DNA of 64,000 bases, taken from assembly GCA_009885795.1 (NCBI GenBank), contig VFKA01000012.1, positions 1-64,000 on the forward strand, written 5' to 3'. Made by a program: the position numbers and the translations under genes. The first letter of the stretch is position 1, and every line of letters begins with the position of its first letter. This DNA comes from Rhodospirillales bacterium. GTDB taxonomy: Bacteria; Pseudomonadota; Alphaproteobacteria; Dongiales; Dongiaceae. Below the pieces are notes generated by a model, which did not search any database, was not told where the DNA came from, and saw only the letters and a list, made by a program, of their open reading frames with translations. Positions 3,086-51,993 of this stretch are shown piece after piece.

Positions 3086-3748
3086 CTAGCTCTCCTCGCG
3101 CGGGCGGCCGGGCGGGCGGGGGCGAACGTCGCGGCCGAGCTTGGACTTGAGGCGGGCGAAGAAGGCGCCGCCGCCGAGCGGATGGCCGGTGCGCTCATGG
3201 GCGCGGATGGCATCGTGGTCCGCGTCGTCGAGACCGCCGGCTAGAAACCCGCGCCAGTCGGGCACCCGATCCAGGAGCGGCGCCACGCGGACCAGCCCGT
3301 CATCCTTGGCCGAAAGATGGGCGGCGGCGCTCGACCAGGCCCAAGCGCGCGGGTTCGCGGCCAGCTTCGCGCGTACAGGGTTCAGCTCGATATAGCGGGC
3401 GCAGGCGAGGAGATAATTCTCATCCATCGGGAAGGAGGAGAAGCGGCCCTGCCACAGATGTCCGCTCCACTCCCGCCGGAGGTTGATGCGGCGCGCGTAG
3501 CGCCGGTGCGCCTCGCCCAATCCCGCGCGCAGGCCGTCCCCGTCGGCCGGAACGAGGATGAGGTGAACGTGGTTGGGCATCAGGCAGTAGGCCCAAACTT
3601 CCGTGCCGGCCTTGGCGCACCACTCCGCGACCAGTGCCATATAGGCGCGATAATCGCCCGCGCCGAAGAATACTTTCAGGCGCCGGTTGGCGCGCTGGGT
3701 GACGTGATGGGGCAGTCCGGGAATGACAAGGCGGGCCGTGCGTGCCAT
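3086..3748 (-). CDS. REP-associated tyrosine transposase (RAYT), Y1/IS200-like
   Basis: The 220-residue product carries the Y1 transposase hallmarks: an N-terminal PGLPHHVTQRANRR block, the HUH-type metal motif PNHVHLI near residue 65, the WQGRFSSFPMDENYLLACARYIE segment with the expected tyrosine, and ELNPVRAKL. Length and architecture match domesticated RAYTs that act on REP hairpins rather than full IS200 elements. The ATG at 3748 (MARTARLVIPG) fits the family start better than the in-frame ATG four codons upstream. Right next to its 5' end are GTCACCAATTA repeats, plausible substrates. No IS ends flank it, so it is probably a single-copy resident gene. Confidence 0.9.
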   Translation of the reverse strand: MARTARLVIPGLPHHVTQRANRRLKVFFGAGDYRAYMALVAEWCAKAGTEVWAYCLMPNHVHLILVPADGDGLRAGLGEAHRRYARRINLRREWSGHLWQGRFSSFPMDENYLLACARYIELNPVRAKLAANPRAWAWSSAAAHLSAKDDGLVRVAPLLDRVPDWRGFLAGGLDDADHDAIRAHERTGHPLGGGAFFARLKSKLGRDVRPRPPGRPREES

Positions 3749-3783
3749 GCCCCAGAGCATACACGGCCGCCCGCCCCGGCCGC

Positions 3784-3809
3784 AATTAATTATATACCGT
3801 CACCAATTA
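3784..3809. repeat. 26-bp direct repeat, left copy
   Basis: The sequence AATTAATTATATACCGTCACCAATTA is identical to 5114-5139. It lies between the RAYT promoter side and the 3' end of the DUF1127 gene. A further partial unit, GTCACCAATTATA, follows directly and contains the DUF1127 stop codon. Confidence 0.85.
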
Positions 3810-3811
3810 TG

Positions 3812-4102
3812 TCACCAATTATAGGCGTCCACGACCGCTTCGATGCCGGCGCGGTCGATGCCGATGTCGGCGAGCATGCGGTCGTCGAGCGCGGAGAGTA
3901 CCGCGATGCCTTCGCGCCGGCGGCGCCTCAACCGGTGGCCGCGCGCGACCGCGCGGGCGAGATCGGCGGCGATGCGCGCGGTCGCATGGACCGCCCTTAC
4001 CGCCGCGTGGCCGAACCGCTCCAGCGCCTCGGCGCGGGCTTCGGTGGCCCGGACGACATAGGCATGGTAATCCGGGTTCTGGAGCAAAGTGGTGTGGGTC
4101 AT
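3812..4102 (-). CDS. DUF1127-family small protein
   Basis: This 96-residue product ends in the DUF1127 signature LSALDDRMLADIGIDRAGIE, preceded by an Arg-rich stretch (RGHRLRRRRREG). The ATG at 4102 has GGAGAACGATC in front. DUF1127 proteins are small arginine-rich proteins of alpha- and gammaproteobacteria; some bind RNA or tune phosphate and carbon metabolism, but the role of this longer form is unknown. It is divergent from the LysR gene across about 100 bases, which suggests that the LysR controls it. The stop codon lies within the flanking GTCACCAATTA repeat, so the last residues (YNW) are encoded by repeat sequence. Confidence 0.8.
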   Translation of the reverse strand: MTHTTLLQNPDYHAYVVRATEARAEALERFGHAAVRAVHATARIAADLARAVARGHRLRRRRREGIAVLSALDDRMLADIGIDRAGIEAVVDAYNW

Positions 4103-5119: not shown

Positions 5120-5139
5120 TTATATACCGTCACCAATTA
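5114..5139. repeat. 26-bp direct repeat, right copy
   Basis: This is a perfect copy of 3784-3809, in the same orientation, 1330 bases away. It overlaps the last codons and the stop of the LysR gene. Together the two copies frame the DUF1127/LysR pair. Confidence 0.85.
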
Positions 5140-44788: not shown

Positions 44789-47700
44789 CTACCTGAAATC
44801 CCGCGAGGGAAAGGCGGGGTCGCGCGCCCCGTCGCGTCCCCCGGCGCCCGTGGCGGCGCGATCGGGCCGCGCGAGGCGGCGCAAGTGGAACGAGAGATCG
44901 ACGAGACGCTCGGCGATGACGTGGATGACGATGCCTTCCTTCTGCAGCTTGCCGGTGACGCCCATGAGGGTGGCGCCGAGCACGACGCGCCGGAAGCGCT
45001 CGAAGGTCCTGGACCAGACGATGACGTTGGCGACACCGGTCTCGTCCTCGAGCGTGGCGAAGATGACTCCCGACGCGGTTCCCGGCCGCTGGCGCACCAG
45101 CACCAGCCCCGCGACGGAGACCCGCGCGCCGTCGGGCGTGTCGGCCAGGCGCGCCGCCGGCACGTAGTTCCCGGGATCGAGGTCCCCGCGCAGAAGCGCC
45201 AACGGGTGGCGTTTCAGCGACAACCGCAGGTGCCGGTAATCCTCGGCCACGTGTTCGCCCATGGTCATGGGCGGAAGCGCCACGGCCGCCTCCGCGCCCT
45301 GGTCGTTCTCCTCGCCCATGGCGGCGAAGAGCGGCAGCGGCGCAAGCGGCAGGCCCTTCACCGTCCACAACGCCTCGCGCCGGTCGAGACCCATGGAGCG
45401 GAAGGCATCGGCGCGCGCCAGGGTCTCGAGAGCGGCGGCTTTAAGTCCGCTCCGGCGCCACAACGCCAGCGGATCGCCGAAGCCGTTGGCACGCGCGGCC
45501 ACGAGGCGGGCGGCGTCCACCTCGGAGAAGCCCTTGATCTGGCGGAAGCCAAGGCGCAACGCATCCGGCTCCAGCGTGCAATCCCACTCGCTCATGTTGA
45601 CATCGGGGGCGCGGACCTCGACGCCGTGGGCGATGGCATCGCGCACGATCTGCGCCGGGGCATAAAAACCCATGGGCTGGCTGTTCAAAAGCGCACAGGC
45701 GAAGACGGCCGGGTAATGCCTTTTCATCCAGGCCGAGACATAGACCAGGAGCGCGAAGCTGGCGGCGTGGCTTTCCGGGAACCCGTATTCGCCGAAGCCC
45801 TCGATCTGCTTGAAGCAGCGCTCGGCGAACTCGCGCCCGTAGCCGCGCGCGACCATGCCTTCGACCAGCTTCGCCTGGAAGGTGTGGATGGTCCCCATCT
45901 TCCGGAAGGTGGCCATGGCGCGGCGCAATTGATCCGCCTCCCCCGGTGTGAAGCCGGCGGCGACGATGGCGATGCGCATGGCCTGCTCTTGAAAGAGCGG
46001 CACGCCCAGCGTCTTGCCCAGGACCGCCTCCAGCTCGGGCGAGGGATATTCGACCGGCTCCTCGCCGCTTCGCCGGCGCAGATAGGGATGCACCATGTCG
46101 CCCTGGATCGGCCCCGGCCGCACGATCGCCACCTCGATCACGAGATCGTAGAAGCAGCGCGGGAGCAGGCGCGGCAGCATGCTCATCTGGGCCCGGCTTT
46201 CCACCTGGAAGACGCCGATGGAATCGGCCGCGCACAGCATGTCGTAGACGGCCGGATCCTCGGGCGGGACCGAGGCGAGGTCGAGGGTGCTGCCGTAATG
46301 GCGGCCGAGCAGGGCAAAGCCCTTGGCCAGGCAGGTGAGCATGCCGAGCCCCAGCACGTCGACCTTGAGGATGCCGAGCGCGTCGAGATCGTCCTTGTCC
46401 CATTCGATGACCGTCCGGTTCGCCATGGCCGCGTTTTCGATCGGCACCAGTTCGCACAAGGGTCCGCGCGATATCACAAAGCCGCCGACGTGCTGGGAGA
46501 GATGGCGCGGGGTGCCGCAAAGCTGGTTCGCCAGATCGAGGGCAAGCGCGAGGCGGCCGCTCGAGGGATCGAGGCCGAGCGCCCTCGCCTCGGCCGGCGG
46601 CACGCCCTCGCGGCTCCAGCCCCAGATCTGGCCGGCGAGCAAGCCCACGGTATCCTCGGAGAGGCCCATGGCCTTGCCGGCCTCGCGGATGGAAAGGCGC
46701 GCGCGGTATCGGATCACCATGGCGGCGAGCCCGGCGCGCTCGCGGCCGTATTTTTCATAGATGTACTGGATCACCTCCTCGCGCCGCTCATGCTCGAAAT
46801 CCACGTCGATGTCGGGCGGCTCGTTGCGCGCGGCGCTGACGAAGCGCTCGAACAAAAGGTCGTGGCGGGCGGGATCGACGGCGGTGATGCCGAGGCAGAA
46901 GCACACCGCCGAATTGGCCGCCGAGCCGCGGCCCTGGGCGAGGATGCCGCGGCTCCTAGCGAAGCGCACGATGTCATGGACGGTGAGGAAATAGGGCGCG
47001 TAGCGAAGCTGGCCGATGAGCGCGAGCTCATGGCGGATCGTTGCCTCGACCGCCGGCGGCACGCCGCCGGGATAGCGGACGCGGGCACCCACCCGCGTCA
47101 GCCGCTCGAGCGCCTCTTGCGCGCTTTCGCCTTCGGCCGCCACCTCGTCCGGGTACTCGTAAGCCAGTTCGTCGAGATTGAAGGTGCAAACCCGCGCGAT
47201 TTCGACCGTGCGCGCGAGCGCCTCGGGGTAACGGGCGAAGAGCCGCGCCATCTCGGCCGGCGATTTCAGGCGCCGCTCGGCGTTGGGAGAGAGGCGGTAG
47301 CCGGCCTCGTCGATGGTGCAATGGGAACGAATGCAGGCAAGCGTGTCGGCCAGCGGCCGGCGGCCGGCCTCGTGCATGCGCGCGTCGTTGACGGCGACGA
47401 GCGGGGTTCCACGCCGCCGGCCAAGATCGTCGAGCGCGGCCAGGCGCCGATCGTCGTCGCCGCGCAGGTGGTGATGGCCGGCAAGATAGGCGCGGCCCGG
47501 AAACGCCTCGGCGAGGCGGGTGAGGGCGATGGCGATGGTCTCGCAAGGGCCAATCTCCGGCGGGAGCGCGATGGCGACCTGGCCCTCGGCATGGTCGAGG
47601 ACATCGTCGAGCGTCAGATGGCACTCACCCTTGGGCGCGCGCCGCTTGCCGAGGGTGAGGAGGCGCGCGAGGCGCCCATAGGCGGCGCGGCCGGTGGGAT

Positions 47701-47938
47701 AGAGGAGCAGGCTTGGCGCATCGGCGAGATCGAGCCTTGCGCCGACGATGAATTTGACGCCGGCGGCCTTGGCCGCCTGGTGCGCGCGCACGATGCCGGC
47801 GAGGCTGTTGCGGTCGGTGAGCGCCACGGCCTCGAGGCCGAGCGCCGCCGCGGTCTCGATCAACTCATGCGGATGCGAGGCGCCGGCGAGAAAGCTGAAA
47901 TTGCTCGCGACCTGCAGCTCGGCGTAGGCGGGGGGCAT
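44789..47938 (-). CDS. dnaE2: Error-prone DNA polymerase III alpha subunit 2
   Basis: The 1049-residue product has an N-terminal PHP domain ([41 protein letters not shown]) and a C-family polymerase core with the catalytic aspartates in [25 protein letters not shown]. It also has a helix-hairpin-helix region (GFREIKGF-like [18 protein letters not shown]) and an OB fold ([36 protein letters not shown]). It carries out translesion synthesis after DNA damage with ImuA and ImuB. It is last in the imuA-imuB-dnaE2 series, 183 bases after imuB, with a repeat element in the gap. Confidence 0.96.
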
Positions 47939-47967
47939 GGGCAGGGCTATCGCATATGCAACTTCCC

Positions 47968-48080
47968 CATCCTTCGAGACGGCCGCTTCGCGGCCTCCTC
48001 AGGATGAGGAATTTCGCGATGGTTATTGGACGGCCTCACCTTGAGGAGCGCCCGTTAGGGCGCGTCTCGAAGGGCGAGGC
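47968..48080. repeat. CTTCGAGACG inverted-repeat element between imuB and dnaE2
   Basis: The arms CATCCTTCGAGACG (47968-47981) and CGCGTCTCGAAGGG (48061-48074) are inverted. The inner segments CCTCAGGATGAGG and CCTCACCTTGAGG, plus two small GC hairpins, lie between them. It is non-coding and splits the SOS operon. A fragment similar to its TTGAGGAGCGCCC part recurs at 55770-55785. Confidence 0.8.
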
Positions 48081-48121
48081 CGTCACATGCGGTAGCCCTG
48101 GGATCTTGGGCGTCAACCCCG

Positions 48122-49678
48122 TCAACCGAACAGCCCGTGCAGGTACCAGCGCGAGGGGGAGGGCGCATCGACTTCGCGGTAGAGCCAGTAGCGGCGCCCC
48201 TCCTCGTCCTCGAAGCGGACGTAATCGCGCGCGCGCGCCGCATCGCGCCACCATTCGCCGGCGATGCGCTCCGGCCCTTCCAGGCGCCGGGCGCGCCGGG
48301 TAAGCCCGCGCCAGGCGAACGATAGCGGGGCGTCCGATGTCTCCTCCACCGTCACCGGCTCGGGCCGGGCGAGGAGCCGCAGGGGGCGCGGCGGCAAGGC
48401 CGGCCAGGACGCGACCGCGCGGGAGGTAGGCAAATCTTCCGCCGCCGGCACGGTCATGACGGCGCGTTCGGGCCAGTGGCTCGCGCGCGGCGCCGGGCGG
48501 ACGAGGGCGGCGAAGCCGAGGCGGTTGCCGAGCCGGTCGATGAGCGCGGAAAGATCGCCGGCCGCGCCGGGGGCGTTTCTTTCCATGGGTCCGGTTGCTA
48601 GGACTTCTTGCCGGGCGGGCGCGGGCTCGACGCGCGGGGCCGTCAGCACCATGATCTCGACGCCGAAGCCGGGATCGAGGCGCTCGAGGCGCTGGGCGAA
48701 GAGGCGTGAGATCGCCGCCACGTCGCGGCTAGGCCGGCTCGTGCCGACGGAAGCGCGCTCCACGGCGCCATCGACCCGGTAGAGCGCGAGCTCGACCCGC
48801 CTCGCGCCCTGCCCCGCCGCCTCGAGATCCTGGCACAGTTCACGGAGCAGCCGGCCGAGACCGGCGGCGATGCCATCGGCATGCGCGATCGGCTCGGGGC
48901 AGAGCAGCCGCGCCTGATGCGCGGCCGGGGCCAGGCGCGGCGCGATCGGCTCGGCCGCGCGGCCCAGCGCCCGGTCGAGTTGCAGGCCCGGTTGCGGACC
49001 GAAGCGGCGCCTGAGCGCGGCGCGGGCGAGCTGATCGAGATCGCCCACCAGGCGCAGGCCGAGGCGGTCGAGCTCGCGCACCATGGCCGGCGCCAGACGC
49101 AACGCCGCCGCCGGCAGCTTCATCAAGGCCCGGCCCTCTCCTCCCGGCGCCACGACGGCGCCATCGCCGCCGGCAAAGCGCGCCACCGCCCAGGCGGCGC
49201 CGGCGGTGTCGGCGATCCCGGCGCGCGCGCCATAGCCGAAGGCGCCGAGACGGCGCACCAGATCGCCGATGAGCGCTTCCTCGCCGCCGAAGAGATGCGC
49301 GCAGCCGGCGATGTCGAGCCACAGGCCGGCGCCGTTGCCGGCATCGTCGGTTTCGATCGCGACCCAGGGCGTATAGCGCTGGCACCAATCGGCGAGCCGG
49401 GCGAGCGCCTCGGCGTCGCCGCGCGCGTCGGCGGGGCGCACGTCGAGACCGGGGACGAGGGCGCGGGCATTGGCGAGCGAGTGGCCGGGCGCGATGCCGG
49501 CCGCCGCGGCCAGCGCATCGGCGGCGACGACCGACCGGACAAGCTCGGCGCGCGCGGCGGTGACGAGCGGGCGCGGCCGGGAGGGAAGCGGCGCAGGCCC
49601 CCCGTCCCCGCCCGCCTCACGCCGCCGACGCTGCCGGTCCGTCGCGAAGCACGGCAACCACAGCGAGACTGCCCGCAT
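48122..49678 (-). CDS. imuB: ImuB, catalytically inactive Y-family polymerase homologue
   Basis: The 518-residue product starts MRAVSLWLPCFATDRQ and follows the Y-family layout (LANARALVPGLDVRPAD, WVAIETDDAGNGAGLWLDIAGCAHLFGGEEAL). Acidic catalytic residues of the palm are missing in the usual positions, as in other ImuB proteins. ImuB bridges ImuA, the beta clamp and DnaE2 in the mutasome. The start ATG 49678 lies inside imuA (62-base overlap). The C-terminal DRARDYVRFEDEEGRRYWLYRE-like region and HGLFG end are conserved features of ImuB. Confidence 0.94.
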   Translation of the reverse strand: MRAVSLWLPCFATDRQRRRREAGGDGGPAPLPSRPRPLVTAARAELVRSVVAADALAAAAGIAPGHSLANARALVPGLDVRPADARGDAEALARLADWCQRYTPWVAIETDDAGNGAGLWLDIAGCAHLFGGEEALIGDLVRRLGAFGYGARAGIADTAGAAWAVARFAGGDGAVVAPGGEGRALMKLPAAALRLAPAMVRELDRLGLRLVGDLDQLARAALRRRFGPQPGLQLDRALGRAAEPIAPRLAPAAHQARLLCPEPIAHADGIAAGLGRLLRELCQDLEAAGQGARRVELALYRVDGAVERASVGTSRPSRDVAAISRLFAQRLERLDPGFGVEIMVLTAPRVEPAPARQEVLATGPMERNAPGAAGDLSALIDRLGNRLGFAALVRPAPRASHWPERAVMTVPAAEDLPTSRAVASWPALPPRPLRLLARPEPVTVEETSDAPLSFAWRGLTRRARRLEGPERIAGEWWRDAARARDYVRFEDEEGRRYWLYREVDAPSPSRWYLHGLFG

Positions 49679-50327
49679 CCGACCACTCCATGAGCCAGCC
49701 GCCCGGCCGGCCGCCGCGGCATGCGCGCAACTGCACGCGCCAGCGCGACGGTCCGGGTAGAACGTCGAGGGAACCCGCACCGCTCGGCGCCGAAGACACC
49801 TGCCAGCGCGTGACCGCCGTGGTGGAAGTGCCATGGCGGCGCAGCAGCAGGCCCACCGTGCCCCCGGCCTCGGCCGCGAGCTGCAGCCGGCGGCTTGCCG
49901 TCGCATCGAGGCTGTCCACCTCGCCCAGCACGGCGGCAAGGTCGCGGCAGCGCAAGGCCTCCTCCATCGCCCATAACCGGTCGGCCGGGCGGGGGATCGT
50001 CGCCAGGATTATTCGCTCCGGATCGAGACCGAAGGCCCGCAGGCCGTGAGCATAGGGCGGCGCGCCATCCTCCGGCCGGCACCACAACACCGGCTTGCCG
50101 GCCGGCAGGCAGGAGAGCAGGGCGGCGCAGAAGCCGTCGGCAGCGCCGTCATCCGCTTCGCCTGCGACCTCGTGCAGGCAGCCGAGCGCCAGCCCTCCGC
50201 CCAAGGCCGCATCGACCGCGGAGAGGCCGAGGGGAAGGCGCCTGATTCCGGCTTCCATGCCGCGGAGACGGCGGCGGAGCTCCATCAGGCGGCCTTCCGC
50301 CTCGGGGGGGATTGTCGAGCCATCCAT
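49617..50327 (-). CDS. imuA: ImuA, SOS mutagenesis accessory protein (RecA/SulA-like)
   Basis: The product of about 236 residues has a RecA-like layout: LPLGLSAVDAALGGGLALGCLHEVAGEADDG in place of a Walker A, then PVLWCRPEDG and DLAAVLGEVDSLDATASRRLQLAAEAGG. ImuA links ImuB to RecA in translesion synthesis. I prefer ATG 50327 (MDGSTIPPE), which follows AGGGAG, over ATG 50345, which abuts the LexA box and has no ribosome binding site. It is the first gene of the SOS operon. Confidence 0.93.
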   Translation of the reverse strand: MDGSTIPPEAEGRLMELRRRLRGMEAGIRRLPLGLSAVDAALGGGLALGCLHEVAGEADDGAADGFCAALLSCLPAGKPVLWCRPEDGAPPYAHGLRAFGLDPERIILATIPRPADRLWAMEEALRCRDLAAVLGEVDSLDATASRRLQLAAEAGGTVGLLLRRHGTSTTAVTRWQVSSAPSGAGSLDVLPGPSRWRVQLRACRGGRPGGWLMEWSDAGSLAVVAVLRDGPAASAA

Positions 50328-50345
50328 GGTTTCATTCTCCCTCAT

Positions 50346-50360: not shown

Positions 50361-50782
50361 TATACAAAACCGAACCCTAAGTCAAGCCCCCCAGCGAAAA
50401 AACCGAATCCAGTCAATCCACCCCATGTCCAGCGGGGAATGCCGCTTGGCGGGGGTGGCAGGCGAAACGGGATGATCGAACCATATCGGATCGCGGCCCG
50501 GAAAATTCCAGGGCAATTCCTTCCGGCAAGACGGATCGCGTTTGCCCAACCTTCCGCCAATCGTTAACCTTGGCTTCAAGCCGGTCGAAAGGGGCCTTGA
50601 TGACCAAGCGGGCGCGGGCGGCGGCGGCAAGACGCCTACAAGTGTAGAATTGACAGTGCACGAAATTGAATCCTTGCGTCGGATGCCGCTGCGCGCAAGA
50701 AGCTGCGGTGTCCATGGGGGACGAGGTGGAGCGGCGAATGGTTCAACATGCCGTCACGGTAGATATGTCGTGATTCCTATTT
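50361..50782. other. Intergenic stretch upstream of imuA
   Basis: This region holds no gene I can support. Open frames on both strands (about 50413-50715 minus and 50542-50784 plus) overlap, are compositionally odd and have no ribosome binding site or family motif. The AT-rich TCTATACAAAAC near 50360-50370 probably contains the imuA promoter -35/-10 region. Confidence 0.5.
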
Positions 50783-50838
50783 AATGCACTGTCACCGAAA
50801 TTCCCGAAATTCCTGTCACCGAAATTCACCGAAATTTC
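50783..50838. repeat. Left arm of a 1.04-kb terminal-inverted-repeat unit
   Basis: The arm starts with AATGCACTGTCACCG, which is the exact reverse complement of 51808-51822. It continues as short repeats of CGAAATTC with an internal second GTCACCG. The right arm has the same order of words in inverted orientation, with CGTAATCC in place of CGAAATTC. Confidence 0.85.
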
Positions 50839-50896
50839 AAGTGCACTCCACTCCGACCAACCGATTCATTCGACTCACAAAGTCCCCGGACGGACA

Positions 50897-51631
50897 CTAA
50901 TGCGTTGGCACTTCTCCAAAATCGCTTCTGATCGGGAAGAAACGATCATTATTGATGATTATTTTCCCCTTACTCGTGAAGTGAATTCCTTCATAAATAT
51001 TGCCGCCGAACAGTAGATAGCCTGGCGTAGTCCCACCCAACTTCAACAGAAGACATGGATTTGTATTCTGATTACCATAGTTCCACTCGGCATTGAATCG
51101 AGCATTATCACCAATCCGCCGGTGAATTTCATACGACTGAAACACCACTTCATCAATTCCCTCGGACAAGAGATGCATCGTGCGAACGCTAAAATCCGGA
51201 TAGCGAATGACCAAGACAATGTCTGTGATCGCACCGCGGGCCTGTCGGTGTGCTCTATGCTTTGCGACCTCTTCTTTGGTTAGTCGCTTCTCTGACGCAG
51301 GGAACGAGTACTTTTCGTTGATGATTGTATAGCAGCCTTTTTCATGATCGTGATCAAAGCCATTCGTATGGCAACCAGAGTATTGAGGCCTCACCTCTCC
51401 GGTCAAATAGTAATAAACGCAAGGATTTGATCGAGGCCCGCCACCAGTATTCCAGATTTGCCAGAAGCTATCAAACACCCCCAACCGAGCTTCTATTTCA
51501 TCGTGTGAAAAAACGATCTCCCGGATGGGGCGTTGCACGTTGTGGGGAAGAAATTTTGTATGACCATCTGCATACTTCACGCAAAAGCCGACGTAGAGTA
51601 CTTCCCCGCGTGGTTCGTTCACGAGCGTCAC
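50897..51631 (-). CDS. Internally duplicated protein of unknown function, cargo of the inverted-repeat unit
   Basis: The 244-residue soluble product consists of two homologous halves, about residues 12-111 and 136-233. Each shows a beta-rich opening (VGFCVKYADGHT / IVLVIRYPDFSV), an EI-x2-R-x-G turn (45-51 / 168-174), W-N, N-P-C (69-71 / 191-193), I-I-N (103-105 / 225-227) and F-P (110-111 / 232-233). I do not recognise the family. GTG 51631 follows GGAGGGAGGATGTAG, a strong ribosome binding site. Base composition is much less G+C-rich than its surroundings, and it lies alone between perfect 15-bp inverted repeats, both signs of transfer. No transposase is encoded. Confidence 0.7.
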   Translation of the reverse strand: MTLVNEPRGEVLYVGFCVKYADGHTKFLPHNVQRPIREIVFSHDEIEARLGVFDSFWQIWNTGGGPRSNPCVYYYLTGEVRPQYSGCHTNGFDHDHEKGCYTIINEKYSFPASEKRLTKEEVAKHRAHRQARGAITDIVLVIRYPDFSVRTMHLLSEGIDEVVFQSYEIHRRIGDNARFNAEWNYGNQNTNPCLLLKLGGTTPGYLLFGGNIYEGIHFTSKGKIIINNDRFFPIRSDFGEVPTH

Positions 51632-51713
51632 CTACATCCTCCCTCCGACTACTGGTGGAACGCTATCGCAATAGTGGGTAAAGTGCAATATGCCTCGCAA
51701 AAGAGGTAACGTC

Positions 51714-51822
51714 AGGTGGATTACGGGATTACGCGGGATTACGGTGCGGGATTACGGTGGGGATTACGGTGGGATTACGGTGACAGGATTACGGGATTAC
51801 GGGATTACGGTGACAGTGCATT
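51714..51822. repeat. Right arm of the terminal-inverted-repeat unit, with tandem GGATTACGG repeats
   Basis: About eight imperfect copies of a GGGATTACGG(T) unit are strung together and twice interrupted by GGTGACAG. The arm ends in CGGTGACAGTGCATT (51808-51822), the exact inverted copy of the left end. The copies vary in spacing (8-15 bases) and have no unique spacers. Confidence 0.85.
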
Positions 51823-51993
51823 CAATTGGCGCCCCGCGCCTAGCATCGAACATGGCCCGCTTCACCCTGCTCGTCATTTCCCCGTGCCGCGCCATTCAAG
51901 GGTCGAGCAAAATGCAAGACCTGACCCCAATCGTTTTGTGAATCTGGTATGCCCTTTCCATCCAGGCCGAGGCGCGCCAAAGAGGGGGTTCCC

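Follow-up and report, generated by a model that had tools for sequence, protein, structure and literature searches.

Two 15-bp sequences in perfect inverted repeat bracket a single gene in the DNA analysed here, a 64,000-nucleotide stretch of a Rhodospirillales bacterium contig (the window; Table 1). The sequence AATGCACTGTCACCG occupies 50783-50797 and its exact reverse complement 51808-51822 (15/15 bp), as the original prediction had stated and as re-reading of the sequence confirmed. With mismatches allowed, the similarity of the two arms extends to 29 nt at 86% complementarity (50776-50804 and 51801-51829). The words said to follow inward from both arms were also correct, with CGAAATTC units on the left and nine GTAATCC units on the right. 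An Rfam search at the locus returned no match. Directly left of the locus, at 44789-50345, a DnaE2-like, ImuB-like, ImuA-like gene order was noted by eye.

Table 1 Features of the inverted-repeat locus and of the RAYT region in the window.
Feature	Position	Strand	Evidence or remark
RAYT (Y1_Tnp), probably of a different repeat family	3086..3760	-	PF01797 E 1.8e-11; REP_Tyr_transpos E 6.8e-18
Repeat adjacent to the window RAYT, ATACCGTCACCAATTA	3794..3809	+	second copy 5124-5139; 0.02 expected
Degenerate left TIR of the proposed left element, TGACAGTGCACGAAATTGAAT	50651..50671	-	pairing with right TIR; likeness to C80 TIR
Right TIR of the proposed left element, ATTTAATGCACTGTCACCG; contains the left arm, 50783-50797	50779..50797	+	
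Left satellite array: four GAAAT units, mostly with TC tail, then AAGTGCACT fragment	50798..50848	+	
Orphan gene of 244 aa with two diverged halves in tandem, each ~105 aa	50897..51631	-	47% G+C
Shine-Dalgarno-like GGAGGGAGGA upstream of GTG start	51637..51646	-	sequence
Right satellite array: nine GTAAT units, private tail CC in all	51716..51807	-	
Left TIR of the right element (the right arm)	51808..51822	-	
RAYT transposon relic: leader GGCGCCCCGCGCCTAG and decayed RAYT start (ATG at 51852)	51823..51890	+	
End-type repeat of another TIR class, GGGGTCAGGTCTTGCATTTTG	51908..51928	-	exact match, 0 expected

The two halves of the protein encoded between the arms are 30% identical over 108 aa (E 7e-9). 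Its gene (735 bp) has a G+C content of 47.2% compared with 65.3% for the window, and equally low values are found in just 0.3% of the window's 735-bp stretches. By codon position, its G+C content is 53/38/50%, against 69-76/52-60/82-89% for three other window genes. The composition of the gene is foreign, and the description of it as low in G+C, foreign-looking and unaccompanied by a transposase stands. No relatives of the protein were found in Pfam, NCBIfam, PHROGs, PADLOC, PDB sequences, plasmids or viral contigs, nor in 84,980 species genomes (a search that reaches close relatives only), 385 class genomes or 398 phylum genomes, and a search of its own genome yielded no further copy of the gene. 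Matches to T5-like phages were rejected as chance (E 0.04 or worse, 25% identity); they partly cover the end of a clpP gene and extend beyond it. A single-sequence AlphaFold2 model of the protein had a pLDDT of 33 and was unusable. Homologues of the flanking genes in genomes of the same taxonomic family are 30-60% identical, too distant for an empty site to be read.

The arm core, GCACTGTCACCG, is present in 36 copies in the 3.46-Mb genome, against none for the reversed control, and TGTCACCGNAWT in 56 copies, against one. The 15-bp match of the arms is not due to chance, since both belong to this genome-wide TIR family. The triplet preceding the core reads AGT-GCAC in 32 of the 36 copies, AAT-GCAC in three and CAT-GCAC in one; the AAT form is that of both arms and of a single copy on contig C48. 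The genome carries the TIRs singly, as dimers and in clusters, and dimers elsewhere in the genome form near-perfect hairpins (-30.8 kcal/mol, z -12.8). A GT[AG]G foot was absent from the hairpin (consensus AATTAAGTGCACTGTCACCGNAAT). The TIR core GGTGACAG has one mismatch to the motif GGGGWSAS, which is reported in some TIRs only (PMC3733652) and is therefore not family-defining. Sixteen genomes from the same taxonomic family had 0-4 copies each, close to the number expected by chance. At least 80 loci of named genomes contain the longer pattern AAGTGCACTGTCACCGNAAT, and among the matches listed most are from Alphaproteobacteria (including Bradyrhizobium, Mesorhizobium, Caulobacteraceae and Sphingomonadales). 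Among the papers listed by a text search of the literature with the core sequence, none was on bacterial repeats.

Five RAYT-like hits were found in the genome. The protein encoded on contig C58 (243 aa, intact frame, motifs NHVH and YVSLNP) is flanked on both sides by the TIR in inverted orientation, at 4097(-) and 4888(+). It matches PF01797 (E 1.9e-7) and, at 69 bits and thus below the curated cutoff of 80, the NCBIfam model REP_Tyr_transpos (REP-associated tyrosine transposase; E 3.2e-19). When the C-terminal HTH-like domain of subclass 2.1 was looked for, Y1_Tnp was the only Pfam domain found. The C58-type motifs NHVH, WQ and Y..LNP, and the protein length, fit subclass 2.1 (PMC6006769). 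The TIR is linked to a RAYT, and the C58 protein is the likely enzyme of the arm TIR family. The RAYT at 3.1-3.7 kb of the window, 55% identical to the C58 RAYT, had been put forward as a possible mover of the 1.04-kb unit; this is unlikely, as its repeat is ATACCGTCACCAATTA, whereas the arm TIR flanks the C58 RAYT on both sides. The window RAYT probably goes with this other repeat because ATACCGTCACCAATTA sits 34 bp upstream of its start. ATACCGTCACCAATTA appears to be the repeat that goes with the RAYT of the window, and related copies were seen on contigs C5 and C101. The core GCACTGTCACCG is the terminal inverted repeat of RAYT-type (TIRYT, Y1/HUH) transposons, a family common among Alphaproteobacteria. 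The proposal that both arms derive from one hairpin-type repeat, as diverged copies with a link to RAYTs, was supported.

The orientation of the repeats was read by mapping the TIR core in 97 sequences: the window, 16 loci of its own genome and 80 named loci among the matches listed. Outward-facing pairs (minus then plus) lay 15-116 bp apart in 40 cases, 707-837 bp apart in 11 and 2324 bp apart in one, and in the 707-837 bp class a RAYT with 55% or more identity to the C58 protein lies inside 10 of the 11 pairs (both counts among the matches listed). Inward-facing pairs, the arrangement in the window, numbered 19 among the matches listed and spanned 10-5203 bp with no preferred distance. Since RAYTs lie within outward-facing pairs and inward-facing pairs keep no set distance, the interior of the element is on the AATTAAGTGCAC side of the TIR and the window gene lies outside. 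The GNAAT satellites lie outside the element as well, opposite the AATTAAGTGCAC side of each TIR. This is the orientation of TIRs in the family, and with this geometry the 1.04-kb stretch does not qualify as a transposable unit. The original prediction had suggested that it could be a non-autonomous mobile cassette; its TIRs point the opposite way from those of the autonomous element, the gene falls outside both elements, and the suggested search for further repeat pairs in the genome gave no second convergent pair of the exact 15-mer. Of that interpretation, the diverged repeat copies, the RAYT link, the foreign-looking gene and the lack of a transposase were upheld, and the mobile cassette and the window RAYT as its partner were not.

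Other arrangements of the TIR were also observed. In three loci (L085 1459-1494, L098 6507-6542 and L111 6267-6300) two TIR ends lie outer side to outer side, 10-12 bp apart, which may represent either two elements joined head-on or a hairpin of unusual form. L107 (5342-6240) has a short repeated gene start (ATGCGCGCGACTCAAGCCT..ATCGAGCAG) to either side of a TIR dimer, a gene of 153 aa and additional TIR-like ends. On contig C80 of the same genome as the window (L039, 440-3650), a TIR pair in element orientation, 2.3 kb apart, encloses reading frames that by eye resemble HigBA and BrnTA toxin-antitoxin pairs; a 177-aa gene with no Pfam hit follows, between degenerate inward-facing TIRs.

Each arm of the locus was found to have its own context. 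The right arm belongs to a RAYT relic: with the TIR excluded, 51823-51890 aligned locally to the C58 element over its leader and opening codons with a score of 57, against a best score of 32 in 2000 dinucleotide shuffles. The relic ends after 51890 and is followed by an exact copy of the GGGGTCAG-type end, which fits the published GGGGWSAS motif (consensus from PMC3733652). On the left, 50651-50666 pairs with 50779-50794 (16 nt, 88% complementary, 112 nt apart). The TIR at 50651 is 95% identical over 21 nt to another own-genome TIR on contig C80, and that at 50779 matches many own-genome TIRs over 22-28 nt.

The satellite arrays beside the TIRs were compared across loci. In arrays with three or more units (n = 44), the 7 nt made up of GNAWT and two private bases agree in 58% of comparisons within arrays versus 5.9% between arrays. 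Among 172 satellite units, the TIR-derived part ahead of the pentamer varies from 1 to 20 nt, and the 7-nt tail is the same as that of the preceding copy in 104. These shared tails and variable TIR-derived lengths indicate copies that are common at the outer end and cut at differing inner points. The private tail is TC in the left arm and CC in the right, so the two arrays probably arose at two separate ends. Tandem 5'-truncated copies of the TIR end with a locus-private 3' tail were seen in the window (50798-50848 and 51716-51807) and in arrays in L031-L132; no description of such copies was found in the literature. The arrays may stem from copying that set out repeatedly from the outer junction and was aborted, possibly beginning at a nick introduced by the RAYT; replication slippage is a plain alternative.

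Loci with a comparable arrangement were sought in named genomes. The mean G+C content of inward-facing intervals of 300-2100 bp was 5.8 points below that of the locus (n = 10, among the matches listed) and that of isolated outer TIR flanks 1.7 points below (n = 102, among the matches listed). The intervals were lower than the isolated flanks (Mann-Whitney p 0.013), which were in turn lower than random stretches (p 0.0009). The contents of the inward-facing intervals varied among the matches listed: DUF6572, SNase, P450, Maf together with an unknown, and genes that hit no Pfam family. In L059 a RAYT (cut by the locus edge), a right TIR, a DUF6572 gene, a left TIR and a RAYT 5' piece follow one another in direct order. 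In Mesorhizobium mediterraneum (L066) the order is right-type TIR, a 286-aa orphan gene of 45% G+C, left TIR and RAYT 5' relic, a layout close to that of the window.

The L066 gene was present in one of 146 genus genomes, in which the match is full length and 100% identical and is therefore probably from the same species; it was not found on plasmids. Mesorhizobium relatives of L066 were reached by a family-level search. Across Mesorhizobium/Rhizobiaceae (loci L205-L219) the L066 site is intergenic, between a sensor kinase and a response regulator, and holds differing foreign inserts across species, including a CRISPR-like repeat array in L211. The site is empty in four relatives, with gaps of 34, 13, 6 and 6 bp (G644, G544, G881 and G791, respectively). 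In G455 it carries a small gene and no core TIR, in G501 another gene accompanied by one TIR, in G815 a pair of small reading frames lacking TIRs, and in G925 a long array of regularly spaced direct repeats with a CRISPR-like look. Such varied fillings suggest that these sites accept foreign DNA with and without these TIRs.

The arms are most probably the facing ends of two separate RAYT/TIRYT elements, with the orphan gene acquired independently rather than carried as cargo. The left arm would be the end of a short non-autonomous TIR dimer (degenerate, 50651-50797) and the right arm the start of the 5' relic of a RAYT-bearing element. The TIRs would be recognised by a C58-type single-strand (HUH/Y1) transposase that dispersed them among intergenic sites, the satellites would be local tandem copies of the TIR end that keep its private tail, and the low-G+C orphan gene, with its own start signals, would have entered a permissive intergenic site independently. 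The data show the repeat family, its linkage to a RAYT, the TIR orientation, the relic on the right and the foreign composition of the gene; mobility by the C58 enzyme, the order of events and any function of the orphan gene are inferred. Two separate elements are favoured by the orientation of the TIRs, the relic on the right, the partner 112 nt away on the left and the differing private tails, as well as by the 36 core copies against none in the control, the TIR-flanked C58 RAYT and the hairpin folding of the dimers. Independent entry of the gene is suggested by the L066 site, which is empty or foreign-filled without a TIR pair in relatives. Three observations count against this explanation: genes between inward-facing TIRs are lower in G+C than ordinary TIR flanks, the layout of the window is repeated in L066, and the left partner at 50651 is degenerate.

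That the orphan gene is instead the cargo of one element, with the two 15-bp arms as its ends and a RAYT moving it in trans, is highly improbable. The perfect inverted repeat, the single foreign gene and the intact RAYT frame in the genome would agree with such a cassette, but its TIRs face the wrong way compared with the sampled RAYT-bearing elements and dimers, which largely refutes it; moreover, the right arm is part of a RAYT relic, the left arm has its own partner, the private tails of the arms differ and the gene is single-copy in the genome. A composite, in which two complete transposons of the family in direct orientation surround the gene and are mobile from outer left to outer right TIR, with the locus as its decayed remainder, is also unlikely, though less so. 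The direct order in L059, the succession of gene, left TIR and RAYT 5' relic shared by L066 and the window, and the low G+C of inter-TIR intervals are in its favour. Against it, the TIR right of the relic is of a different type and no outer right TIR of the family is found there, other intervals carry ordinary genes (P450, Maf, SNase), and neither the window nor the L066 orphan was found at a second place. The low-G+C intervals and the likeness of L066 suggest that there may be some link between these elements and orphan genes. A wider form of this idea, that transposons of the family bracket single low-G+C orphan genes and help to move or capture them (element-gene-element), their ends growing by enzyme-driven tandem 5'-truncated copies with the same outer junction, is likewise unlikely. 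For the two separate elements preferred here, the lesson is that perfect inverted repeats on either side of a gene can be misleading, and that orientation relative to the autonomous element tells cargo from neighbour.

The results tie an abundant alphaproteobacterial repeat to a likely transposase by linkage in many genomes, and the nested private-tail arrays would, should the enzyme make them, visibly record how little-studied single-strand transposases copy DNA. RAYT-like genes flanked by TIRs that are repeated as singles, dimers and clusters have been described as TIRYTs/TIRtrons (Di Nocera et al. 2013, PMC3733652), and TnpA_Y1 subclass 2.1 probably corresponds to these TIRYTs (Quentin et al. 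2018, PMC6006769). The repeats described here are a new, well-linked alphaproteobacterial member of this kind. They share with it a RAYT-like Y1 transposase (NHVH, Y..LNP), long TIRs without GTAG, and the occurrence of TIRs as singles, dimers and clusters; they differ in a core one base off the published GGGGWSAS, in long satellite arrays with private tails, and in an inter-element gene that is in no element. Like GTAG REPIN/REP sequences (PMC3116915, PMC3733652), they form hairpins as inverted-repeat dimers whose spread is attributed to a RAYT acting in trans, but they have no GTAG foot and are TIRs of ~20 bp with an AATT inner end. As in a MITE or a non-autonomous transposon with a passenger gene, inverted repeats surround a gene without a transposase; here, however, no second copy was found and it is the outer sides of the repeats that face the gene.
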